From: Leptolyngbya sp. BL0902
GTDB taxonomy: Bacteria; Cyanobacteriota; Cyanobacteriia; Phormidesmidales; Phormidesmidaceae
Direction: 5' to 3'
Assembly: GCF_016403105.1 (NCBI RefSeq)
Contig: NZ_CP046155.1
Span: 2,571,906-2,635,905 of the forward strand
DNA length: 64,000 bases
Shown: positions 28,608-45,432 of the stretch, in pieces
Numbering within the stretch: the stretch's first letter is position 1
How the letters are laid out: the number at the start of each line of letters is the position of its first letter
The notes under the pieces: generated by a model
Told to the model about the DNA's origin: nothing
Databases searched by the model: none
Seen by the model: only the letters and a program-made list of their open reading frames with translations
Translations under genes and position numbers: made by a program

Positions 28608-28642
28608 CGTTAGTAAGAAATAAATTTCATTTCCTACTAACG
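28608..28642. terminator. Hairpin between excisionase-like gene and integrase
   Basis: Arms CGTTAGTAAGAAAT (28608-28621) and ATTTCCTACTAACG (28629-28642) pair with one mismatch. It overlaps the integrase stop and probably ends both convergent transcripts. Confidence 0.65.
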
Positions 28643-29710
28643 AGGTGCCGACGGACGATCACCCCTAGCCAGCCCCGCCTGGTAGATGGCCCAATACGTC
28701 CCTTCGTCGATCCAGCGGCGGTACACCCGGCAATGGGTTTCTGGGCTGTGGCCCATCAACTTGGCCCCAAACTCAGGCGCAAAGCCAAATTCTAGGCACC
28801 GCCGCGCAAAGCAGTGGCGTAGGTCGTAGGCTTGGCACTTCCCAAACCGCTCGAAGAAACGGGCCGTCTTCGTGCCGAGCTGGGCATTAGTGTAATTGGT
28901 GATGTTCTCCAGCGGTGGCAAGACCTGGTGCTGCAATTCCCAGGCCGTCGCCCACTCTGGATAGAGCGGCCACACAAACCGCGCCCCGGTTTTGGTGTCC
29001 TCACTCACCCGCACCGTGGGGAAGTCCGCCAGGTCGCAACTATACACCTCATGGGGGCGCAACCCATACGCCGCCAGCATTCCAAACAACCATCGCCACC
29101 CTGGATCGGCAATTTGGCCGCGCCACTCTGCAATTTGGTCATCGGTGGGCAACGACCTGGGGTCAACCGCCGTCGCCGAATAGCCCCCCTTGAGCTGCGC
29201 CAGCCCCGCCGACGGCAACCCCGCAAACTCTGCGAGCTGTCGATAGGCATTGCAGGCCCGCAACCGTGATCGCGAATCCTCAGTCGTCTTTTCGGCGGTC
29301 TGCTCCAACAGGGCCACCGTCAGCGGTGCCTCGGTGGGGAGTTTGTTGAACGGTTGCTGGTAGTCCGTCCGCCAGGTGATCGCCGCCCCCCGCCACTGCC
29401 GCCGAAACCGCTCGATCCACTCCCCCACCGATTCTGCCCTGGTGCCCCGCCAATCGGCCCAATCGAAGCGGCCACCCTCCAGAGCCACCCCAATGGCCTT
29501 GGCCTGTTCCTCCGCCAGGGCCAAGCCCCTAGGGTTCGCTGGCAACCCCAGGGCGATCCGCTGCTGGTGTGGGCCATCCTTCGCACTGCCAGGGGCCGGG
29601 GGAAACGTGCCCCGGACGTAAAGTTTTTGGTTCAGCACTTGCAACCGCACCCGGATGCGCCCCGCTTTCAGTCGCCCATTGGCTCGGTTCAGCCGCTCCT
29701 GAAAATCCAT
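28637..29710 (-). CDS. int: Tyrosine recombinase (integrase) of the element
   Basis: A 357-residue phage-type integrase. The N-terminal region has a beta-rich arm-binding part and a SAM-like core-binding segment (ESVGEWIERFRRQWRGAAIT). The catalytic domain shows AAYGLRPHEVYSCDL (Arg I), EDTKTGARFVWPL (Lys), AYDLRHCFARRCLEFG (Arg II; Tyr replaces the usual His two residues before Leu-Arg), MGHSPETHCRVYRRW (His and nucleophile Tyr). It begins 130 bp from the att core inside the intact tRNA-Cys, as expected for the enzyme that inserted this element. ATG 29710. Confidence 0.93.
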   Translation of the reverse strand: MDFQERLNRANGRLKAGRIRVRLQVLNQKLYVRGTFPPAPGSAKDGPHQQRIALGLPANPRGLALAEEQAKAIGVALEGGRFDWADWRGTRAESVGEWIERFRRQWRGAAITWRTDYQQPFNKLPTEAPLTVALLEQTAEKTTEDSRSRLRACNAYRQLAEFAGLPSAGLAQLKGGYSATAVDPRSLPTDDQIAEWRGQIADPGWRWLFGMLAAYGLRPHEVYSCDLADFPTVRVSEDTKTGARFVWPLYPEWATAWELQHQVLPPLENITNYTNAQLGTKTARFFERFGKCQAYDLRHCFARRCLEFGFAPEFGAKLMGHSPETHCRVYRRWIDEGTYWAIYQAGLARGDRPSAPR

Positions 29711-29839
29711 GCCTAAAAATTGCCTAGAATCTTGGCCTCAATTATCTACAACTAGCCACAACTGGCAACAATACACAAAACAATACAATCCCAAAACGCT
29801 TGATTTACAAGGGCTTTGGGCTAAAACTTGGCATAAAAA

Positions 29840-29914
<75 letters not shown>

Positions 29915-33527: not shown

Positions 33528-33830
33528 ATGCAACTGACCCCCCAAGAGAAAGATAAGCTGCTGATTTTCACCGCTGCTCTGGTGGCAGAACGGCGCAAAA
33601 ATCGCGGACTAAAGCTGAATCACCCAGAGGCCGTCGCCTACATTTCGGCGGCTATTTTGGAGGGGGCGCGGGATGGCCGCACTGTGGCAGAACTGATGAG
33701 CTACGGCACCACCCTGCTCAGCCGGGAGGACGTCATGGATGGCGTAGCCGATATGATCCACGAGGTGCAGGTGGAGGCCACCTTCCCCGACGGCACCAAA
33801 CTCGTCACCGTTCACGATCCCATTCGCTAG
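33528..33830 (+). CDS. ureA: Urease subunit gamma
   Basis: The 100-residue gamma subunit of urease, the nickel enzyme hydrolysing urea to ammonia and carbamate. The full-length sequence [40 protein letters not shown] and [20 protein letters not shown] is typical. It is separated from ureB by an S41 peptidase gene, and ureC (the catalytic subunit) is not next to either, so the urease genes are split in this genome. Confidence 0.97.
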
Positions 33831-33931
33831 GGTTGCTGGGTTTGCGGCTAGCGATGGGGCGATGGCCAGCGCAGGCGACTGGTTTTGAGACATTCAGATC
33901 GTGGGCTGATTTAGCCCTAGGTTTGCCTGGT

Positions 33932-35065
33932 ATGACAGATTCGACCCCAACGTTGGCGCACGGTCTAGCTCAATTGCTCACTGCCCCCTTTCTCACTGCC
34001 ATGGATTCCTCTGTCTCTACTGCTTCCGCCACCGACTTTCCCCTCCAGCCCGACGATGTGGAGGCGGTGATTGGGGCGTTGGTGGCCCAGTTAGATCGCT
34101 ACGTGTTTCCAGAGGTAGCGGAAAAAATCCAGGCTGATTTAGATCAGCGTCTCGATAGCGGCGGCTATAGCACCATCACGGGGGGGCAACAATTGGCCGA
34201 TACCCTCACGGCCCAGCTCCAAGCCCTCAGCCAAGATCGTCACCTGAAGCTGCACTTTAGCCCGGTGCCCCTGCCCCACCTCGAACCCCAAGGTGAACCG
34301 ACCGCCGCCGAACTAGAGCGTCAAGCCCAGGCCAGCCGTCGCCGCAATTTTGACCTCAATAAGGTGGAGCGCCTGTCGGGCAATGTGGGCTACATTCAGC
34401 TTTTTAGCTTTGAACCGCCGGAGTTGGCCGGGGATGCCCTAGCCGCAGCGATGACCCTCGTGGCCCACACCGATGCCCTAATTTTCGACCTGCGCCACAA
34501 CCAGGGCGGATCTCCGGCAGCGGTGGCGTTTTTGTGTAGCTACCTGTTTCCGGCCCACCCCGCCGTTCACCTCAACGACCTCTACTGGAGCGAAACCGAC
34601 GAAACCCACCAGTGGTGGACGCTGCCCCACCTGCCGGGGCCACGGTATCTGGGTAAGCCTGTGTTTGTGCTCACCAGCCCCGAAACCTTTTCCGCTGCCG
34701 AAGAATTTGCCTACAATCTGCAAACCCGTCAGCGGGCCACCATCATCGGCGAAACCACGCGGGGCGGGGCCAACCCAGGCCGGGGCTTCCGGCTCCACGA
34801 TCACTTTTGGGTATTCATGCCCACAGGGCAGGCTATCAACCCGGTGACGGGCAAAAACTGGGACGGTACGGGGGTGATTCCCGACGTTAAAGTACCCACG
34901 GAAATCGCCCTCGAAACCGCCCATGTCATTGCCCTCACCCAACGGCTGGAAGCAGGGGTTGAAGGCGCGGCGCGGCGGGAAATCGAGGAAGCCCTGCCCT
35001 TGGTAGAACGCGCCATGCAGCAAAAGCGCCAAGATTTGATTGCCAACCTAGGAGGTAAAGGATGA
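33932..35065 (+). CDS. S41 family peptidase
   Basis: A protein of about 377 residues with an IRBP-like N-terminal helical domain ([20 protein letters not shown]) and a tail-specific-protease-type S41 catalytic domain: [39 protein letters not shown], and [20 protein letters not shown], where the Ser after SPETF is the likely nucleophile. There is no PDZ domain and no clear signal peptide. The frame extends upstream to a TTG at 33833; ATG 33932 or 34001 is more likely. It lies between ureA and ureB and overlaps ureB by four bases, so it is co-expressed with urease. Confidence 0.85.
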
Positions 35066-35367
35066 TTCCTGGAGAACTATTCCCCGCCGAGGGCGAAATT
35101 GAACTCAATGCTGGAAAAGCCACCGCCACCCTGACGGTCGCGAACACAGGAGATCGCCCCATCCAGGTCGGTTCCCACTTCCATTTCTATGAAGTCAACG
35201 CCGCTCTCAGCTTTGACCGAGACCAAGCGCGAGGAATGCGCCTAGATATCCCGGCTGGCACCGCCGTCCGCTTTGAGCCGGGGGATGAGCGCACCGTTAC
35301 CCTGGTGGCTCTCGCCGGAGAACGGAAGGTCTATGGCTTCAATGCCAGAGTAGAAGGGAGCCTCTAA
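35062..35367 (+). CDS. ureB: Urease subunit beta
   Basis: The 101-residue beta subunit of urease, beta-rich, with [38 protein letters not shown] and the terminal [11 protein letters not shown]. It starts in an ATGA overlap with the S41 peptidase gene. Downstream is a convergent unrelated gene rather than ureC, so assembly requires UreC and accessory proteins encoded elsewhere. Confidence 0.97.
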
Positions 35368-45177: not shown

Positions 45178-45334
45178 ACGTTCCTCCCTTACGGATTAAC
45201 CGATACTATCGGCGACATCCCTAGCTTAGGGGGCTATCGAGACAAACGCCTAGGGGGGATATCAGAACCGTTGCCCATTATTTCTAGGCTTACCAAGGGC
45301 AGATCGACCCTGTAAAGGCTCTGAAAACGCAAAA

Positions 45335-45432
45335 GACCCGGAGTCCACGCCTGTCACAAGCATCCCGTAATGCTGCTACCTTCCGGTCCTGACATGATTT
45401 GGGCGTTGCGACCGCATGGGTCCGAGTCCTCT
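45335..45432 (-). ncRNA. ffs: Signal recognition particle RNA (4.5S, bacterial small type)
   Basis: Minus strand. The apical domain is conserved: GTCAGGACCGGAAGGTAGCA followed by GCATTACGGGATGCTTGTGA, including the GGAAG tetraloop region and the Ffh-binding internal loops. Outer strands GAGGACTCGGACCC and GGACTCCGGGTCTTTT close the hairpin. Ends are approximate. The rest of the spacer 45178-45639 shows no further gene. Confidence 0.92.

Follow-up and report, generated by a model that had tools for sequence, protein, structure and literature searches.

The window, that is, the whole stretch of 64,000 nucleotides that was analysed, carries on its forward strand a gene of the S41 peptidase family between the genes for two small urease subunits. 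The locus comprises the following features.

33528–33830, + strand: ureA, urease gamma subunit, 100 aa (Pfam PF00547, Urease_gamma, 3.5e-48; NCBIfam PRK13241 above cut-off)
33831–34000, + strand: spacer between ureA and the S41 gene, 170 nt in the window
34001–35065, + strand: IRBP-type S41 gene, 354 aa, likely start ATG 34001 (PF03572 and PF11918 above cut-offs; phmmer and Foldseek matches)
34241–34243, + strand: CAC codon of His81, the putative catalytic base, in the motif D-R-H-L
34691–34693, + strand: codon of Ser231, the putative nucleophile, in the motif T-F-S-A-A-E-E
35062–35065, + strand: ATGA, the 4-base overlap of the S41 stop and the ureB start
35062–35367, + strand: ureB, urease beta subunit, 101 aa (Pfam PF00699, Urease_beta, 2.3e-47; NCBIfam PRK13203 above cut-off)

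An earlier note on this DNA had described an S41 peptidase gene between ureA and ureB, a four-base overlap with ureB, and a catalytic subunit encoded elsewhere. All three observations are borne out: each gene of the trio has its Pfam match, the overlap is the ATGA listed above, and ureC is absent from the neighbourhood, the single copy found in the genome lying on the minus strand at 3375226–3375579, about 768 kb from the ureB of the window. The S41 reading frame is open from 33833 and, if taken from its first start codon, spans 33833–35065; ATG 34001 is the likely start because the alignment of relatives begins there. Counted up to the earliest ATG or GTG, the spacer after ureA is mostly 4–14 nt in the window's genus. 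In the window it measures 170 nt when the likely start is used, and in its two closest relatives, G325 and G330, it is 70 and 95 nt, measured to the aligned start. Between 33100 and 35900, no sigma-70-like promoter was seen, and the three terminator-like sites are no excess over the 2.7 found in shuffled sequences. An Rfam search over the window returned two tRNAs and a small SRP RNA (45332–45428, minus strand), none of them inside the urease/S41 operon. The interval 28637–29914 holds a 357-aa minus-strand reading frame that appears tyrosine-recombinase-like by eye, has no Pfam match, and adjoins a tRNA-Cys gene (29843–29914), as at an integration site.

The arrangement extends well beyond this genome. 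We surveyed 63 genomes of the window's family, the Phormidesmidaceae; an order-wide search returned the same 63. The S41 gene is present in 58 of them (57 by profile, plus G326, in which it is split over two contigs) and was not found in G299, G339, G342, G347 and G349, G339 having one weak match of 27 percent identity. An intact ureA-S41-ureB triad occurs in 36 of the 63 genomes, which span six genera: 22 of the 26 genomes of the window's genus, G298, G301, G302, all 8 of g121, G350, G215 and G351. This excludes confinement to a single strain, which the earlier note had set as grounds for abandoning its idea. Two further triads are split over contigs (G316, G326), three genomes have a contig that breaks off within the S41 gene or directly behind it (G292, G318, G328), and G340 has ureA and the S41 gene with no ureB following. 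In 16 of the 63, the S41 gene lies away from ureA and ureB, and in two of these genomes (G296, G297) neither ureA nor ureB was matched. Below, g121 (8 genomes) is termed Leptothoe-type, g124 Phormidesmis-type, and the remaining 11 genomes whose S41 gene is not embedded Halomicronema-type. In G342 and G347 (92 and 97 percent complete) urease is present and the S41 gene was not found, so the gene appears to be dispensable there.

What kind of protein is encoded? Pfam recognises both Peptidase_S41 (5.7e-24; 85 bits against a gathering score of 24) and Peptidase_S41_N (PF11918; 9.8e-11; 42.3 against 26.6 bits), the latter being, in Pfam's description, the N-terminal domain of IRBP in eukaryotes. 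The score with NCBIfam prc (TIGR00225) is 43.2 bits, below the cut-off of 218.6, and no PDZ domain was matched by Pfam at E 0.001. Among solved structures, the nearest by sequence are those of vertebrate IRBP/RBP3 (1.2e-143 summed over four modules, 1.1e-43 for the best single-module chain), with a tail-specific protease structure reaching 2.2e-3 in the same search. A structure model made from 12 aligned relatives (mean pLDDT 77.8, pTM 0.64) places helices at 17–31, 37–52 and 62–77, which form a three-helix N-terminal bundle followed by the S41 core. The six best Foldseek matches of this model are again IRBP/RBP3 (E 3.4e-21 to 3.4e-17), at TM-scores by query length of merely 0.41–0.54. Because the Pfam, solved-structure and Foldseek matches all favour IRBP/RBP3, we class the product as a single-module S41 protein of IRBP (RBP3) type, not of Tsp type. 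The label 'tail-specific-protease-type' in the earlier note is thus wrong at the subfamily level, and 'carboxyl-terminal protease' is the wrong name for this gene. In tail-specific/CTP proteases the catalytic Lys sits in a T-x-G-K motif. At that position (256) the window copy has Gly, and Lys occurs in 8 of 53 family members, all of them Leptothoe-type. Prc and CtpA share the S41 core fold with the window copy and differ from it in prc score, in the PDZ domain and in the CTP-motif Lys.

Vertebrate IRBP/RBP3, a retinoid carrier of the eye that also binds fatty acids and resembles the window protein in its N-terminal three-helix bundle and S41 core, is secreted and built of four tandem modules, whereas the window protein is bacterial, consists of one module, and has no signal peptide that we could see. 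Also related are the IRBP-type S41 proteins of other bacteria (Acidobacteria, Planctomycetota, flavobacteria, Paenibacillus, Scytonema and others), which, among the best 80 of at least 522 confirmed relatives, share the same conserved core at 43–53 percent identity over the matched region. Removing 28 members of the window's family from these 80 left 52 outside homologues. A hydrophobic stretch (12-residue mean hydropathy of at least 2) lies just upstream of the matched region in 38 of the 49 rows that could be judged among these 52 from the best 80. When the first 45 residues of 53 family proteins were scanned, only G319 reached this threshold (2.09), in what we read as the first helix. Since the stretch is common outside and occurs in 1 of 53 inside, the family form is probably cytosolic. 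The window protein has no PADLOC match at E 0.001 that would suggest a defence role.

The outside homologues differ from the family in a second respect. His81 is present in 52 of 52 outside proteins (from the best 80 of at least 522) and in only 6 of 53 family proteins: those of G000 (the window's genome), G330, G341, G344, G345 and G346. It is the most extreme of four positions, out of 47 held by at least 95 percent of these 52 homologues from the best 80, that fewer than half of the 53 family proteins keep. At position 231, 45 of 53 family proteins retain Ser and all 8 Leptothoe-type proteins have Thr; Glu251 is found in 53 of 53, and in 50 of the 52 outside proteins from the best 80. The conservation of Ser outside the family is biased, because one of the two search patterns contains Ser; His is in neither. 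A guide to these residues is the nisin resistance protein SaNSR (PDB 4y68; Foldseek 5e-10), which likewise has an S41 fold and an N-terminal helical bundle, although it is membrane-associated, takes nisin as substrate, and is only 14 percent identical in the Foldseek alignment. Its His98/Ser236 dyad serves as a model for His81/Ser231, and because His81 follows the third N-terminal helix, we infer that it is equivalent to His98. According to one report on SaNSR, His98Ala leaves 14 percent activity, the same as Ser236Ala (PMC4698656). On the S41 tree, His81 requires three changes, and the CAC codon of the window is nested in an AAC clade; most simply, His81 of the window would be a regain. The window copy, in which putative nucleophile and base are both present, may therefore be an active peptidase. 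For the family as a whole, the loss of the putative catalytic His from most members is best read as erosion of peptidase chemistry. A precedent exists in chordates: RBP3 has lost catalytic residues, according to two reports (PMC10450429, PMC11750400), and the residue lost in chordate IRBP is the active-site Ser (PMC10450429), whereas the Phormidesmidaceae proteins mostly keep Ser and have mostly lost His.

An alternative is that the S41 protein is an ordinary active cytosolic peptidase, employed for instance in peptide recycling together with an M20 amidohydrolase, which shares the operon by chance and in which the His changes merely shift the mechanism. The retention of Ser231 and Glu251 speaks for this possibility, as does the Ser/His pair of the window copy. 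So does genomic context: in all 5 Phormidesmis-type loci the gene immediately before the S41 gene encodes an M20 amidohydrolase (PF01546, 3.5e-50 in G170), and in 7 of 11 Halomicronema-type loci such a gene is found three genes upstream of the S41 gene. Set against this are the absence from 47 of 53 family members of a His that all 52 outside homologues from the best 80 possess, the loss of Ser as well in the Leptothoe-type (8 of 8), and the activity of SaNSR His98Ala, as low as that of Ser236Ala. We think this alternative has a rather modest chance of being correct; eroded or altered peptidase chemistry is the reading we prefer.

The junction with ureB is strikingly constant. Every one of the 36 intact triads has the S41 stop overlapping the ureB start. 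The overlap is 4 nt long in 27 of them and 1 nt long in the other 9, namely G215 and the 8 Leptothoe-type genomes, where the Leptothoe-type sequence is TAATG; both split triads that reach ureB have the 4-nt overlap too. This geometry, with its stop-start overlap, leads us to infer co-transcription of ureA with the S41 gene and translational coupling of the S41 gene to ureB, and makes likely the co-expression that the earlier note had supposed. Because its start overlaps the S41 stop, the Leptothoe-type UreB begins 4–12 residues earlier than usual in 8 of 8 loci (e.g., L174:4471–4788). These extra N-terminal residues could in principle be trimmed. Apart from this sole exception, and with rows cut by contig ends left aside, UreA and UreB are 100–101 and 101–102 aa where the S41 gene is embedded, and 100–101 and 101–105 aa where it is not. 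We also considered shared nitrogen control of the triad by NtcA, which found no support: of 60 rows, 3 have an exact GTAN8TAC site in the 400 nt before ureA, where shuffled sequences would give 0.082 per row, and these are G342, G343 and G344, all Phormidesmis-type and none with an embedded S41 gene. One of the 60 rows had only 38 nt of upstream sequence, and one was the second urease of G338.

The history of the locus can be read from the S41 tree and from neighbouring genes. In a quick tree with SH-aLRT support only, the family S41 proteins form one clade (support 100), within which the embedded copies of G301 and G302 branch first, the remainder grouping together at support 90. Neither the embedded copies (37 rows, including G340; p-AU 4.7e-7) nor the non-embedded copies (16 rows; p-AU 2.2e-5) form a single clade, and the neighbour genes explain why. 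In Leptothoe-type loci the order is bioD-M20-ureD-ureA-S41-ureB-S-ureC; in Phormidesmis-type loci it is bioD-M20-S41-S, with ureD, ureA and ureB missing from the same place, on both sides of the S41 gene. The gene designated S, which lies between ureB and ureC in the former and after the S41 gene in the latter, encodes a secreted-looking protein of 263–266 aa (L176:5091–5882; L174:5065–5865) with an SH3-like match below cut-off. Its products from two Leptothoe-type and three Phormidesmis-type loci are 43–49 percent identical (E at most 2e-65), and S is homologous across these five and the one Vasconcelosia locus compared. Among the 8 Leptothoe-type loci, several of which end early, bioD is seen in 5, M20 in 7, and ureD before ureA in 7; ureD also precedes ureA in G298, G299, G301, G340 and G351. 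The order in G298 is mem200-DUF3318-ureD-ureA-S41-ureB, and 7 of 11 Halomicronema-type loci have M20-mem200-DUF3318-S41, one has DUF3318 only, and three have no probe gene. In the window's genus, the only probe neighbours in the stretches examined are ureA and ureB, and no probe gene was found beside the S41 gene in six outside cyanobacterial loci. Because flanking genes are shared without ureD, ureA and ureB, the S41 gene appears to have stayed in place, with the urease genes missing around it. Repeated insertion of urease genes around the S41 gene seems less likely, since embedded copies branch first. In a tree of UreA and UreB (67 rows), the Halomicronema- and Phormidesmis-type sequences group with other cyanobacteria (support 91). 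AU tests on 46 rows rejected neither a move nor foreign replacement of ureA and ureB in these genomes: the p values were 0.344 for a single family clade, 0.606 for embedded plus Halomicronema-type, 0.392 for embedded plus Phormidesmis-type, and 0.519 for embedded alone.

These data bear on the processing role for urease that the earlier note had considered. A broader form of the idea is that the S41 protein is a maturation or quality-control factor, whether peptidase or chaperone, whose targets would be UreA, UreB or the apo-urease during assembly and whose dosage would be set by the location of its gene in the operon. Its position inside the structural-gene pair, with the invariable overlap across six genera, is what such a factor might be expected to have, and the maturation gene ureD precedes ureA in most Leptothoe-type loci and the five other genomes named above. 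On the other hand, the gene is not restricted to urease neighbourhoods, as a urease accessory gene should be: 16 family genomes retain it away from ureA and ureB, two of them with no match to either. In a phylum-wide sample of 292 genomes, the PF11918 profile was found in 4, three of them from the window's family, and was absent from the other 288, as compared with 122 genomes that have both ureA and ureB. UreA and UreB have no extension or tail to process other than the early UreB start of the Leptothoe-type, and the putative catalytic His is missing from 47 of 53 proteins. A processing role therefore goes unsupported, and we consider the broader idea improbable as well.

The phylum sample also places the arrangement in context. 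Counting genes as adjacent when less than 300 bases apart on the same strand, ureA and ureB are adjacent in 83 of the 122 genomes, 300–3000 bases apart in 19, and otherwise placed in 20; for ureB and ureC the figures are 62, 21 and 38, with one genome lacking ureC. The view in the earlier note that urease subunit genes are usually contiguous thus holds for the majority and fails for the 19 interrupted and 20 otherwise arranged pairs. That cyanobacterial urease genes are often scattered has been noted before (PMC6737895), in a paper whose main text contains no occurrence of 'peptidase'. The order ureD-ureA-...-ureB is common to cyanobacterial ureDABC clusters and the triad loci. In the 19 interrupted pairs, the S41 gene accounts for 2, a HEC-01-like ATPase for 11 (7 with DUF4276), and Uma2-type genes for 2, one of these just under the Pfam cut-off; the others comprise two reading frames with no Pfam match, one opposite-strand frame that is cupin-like by eye, and one interval with no frame of at least 90 aa. 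It might be argued from these 17 other interruptions, all outside the window's family, and from the similar fate of ureB-ureC, that the junction is a permissive insertion point, the S41 gene one of several unrelated passengers and the overlap a product of compaction, but a neutral passenger would decay, and we regard this as very improbable for a gene that has stayed in place over six genera under the selection described below.

The candidate defence pair (AAA_21 ATPase plus DUF4276) is a separate matter. In family f7, which we read as Nostocaceae, 7 of the sampled genomes carry it between ureA and ureB, at L068:2337–4180 and at like positions in L066, L067, L070, L071, L074 and L084. PADLOC matched the L068 pair, the only one scanned, to HEC-01A (9.4e-58) and HEC-01B (1.6e-10); the others were judged by their like N-termini. 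In four more genomes (L069, L072, L075, L079) the ATPase alone is clear. We found nothing in the literature on HEC-01 together with urease, and a defence cassette inside a urease operon deserves separate study.

The S41 gene is under strong purifying selection. Nei-Gojobori omega ranges from 0.026 to 0.108 over 18 pairs, some of which share genomes; among the 17 pairs with urease values, omega was lower than that of the S41 gene in 16 for ureA and in 16 for ureB. Together with the intact arrangement in six genera, this leaves the other suggestion of the earlier note, a simply neutral insertion, without support.

Taken together, we think the S41 gene is probably an old resident of the urease operon that is coupled to ureB, while its product works in the cytosol independently of urease, its peptidase chemistry reduced or altered. 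The gene would have resided in the operon of the group comprising Nodosilinea, Leptothoe, Vasconcelosia, Halomicronema and Phormidesmis. Transcribed together with ureA and translationally coupled to ureB, the gene would yield its protein whenever UreA and UreB are made. Its own work would be independent of urease, as suggested by its persistence without adjacent urease genes, by the lack of a tail on UreA or UreB, and by its absence from nearly all urease-bearing cyanobacteria sampled; persistence without these neighbours likewise implies that it probably does not serve urease directly. The most likely activity of the protein would be cytosolic binding or handling of peptides or hydrophobic ligands. 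Several observations run counter to this explanation, among them the possible peptidase activity of the window copy and the extra N-terminal residues of the Leptothoe-type UreB. A fully dead enzyme need not retain Ser231 in 45 and Glu251 in 53 of 53 proteins, and the tight coupling to ureB exceeds what a casual neighbour needs.

To judge from titles, the opening lines of abstracts and selected passages, none of the papers listed by our literature searches describes the ureA-S41-ureB arrangement, a weak negative since 'ureA' also matches 'urea'. The arrangement is an example, recurring across a family, of two small urease subunit genes kept apart by a foreign gene that is conserved and overlaps one of them. 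The Leptothoe-type and Phormidesmis-type loci offer a natural comparison, with urease genes present or absent around the same S41 gene. More speculatively, and with considerable doubt, we suggest that this is a cytosolic bacterial IRBP which descends from a secreted peptidase and, independently of vertebrates, became a binding protein without proteolytic activity; the operon would hard-wire its synthesis to urease, linking urea nitrogen to the handling of peptides or of retinoid-like or lipid ligands. The Phormidesmidaceae may represent a second lineage, besides the chordates, in which catalytic residues are lost from IRBP-type S41 proteins, and since this lineage is bacterial and its protein probably cytosolic, such a loss would be testable in culture.
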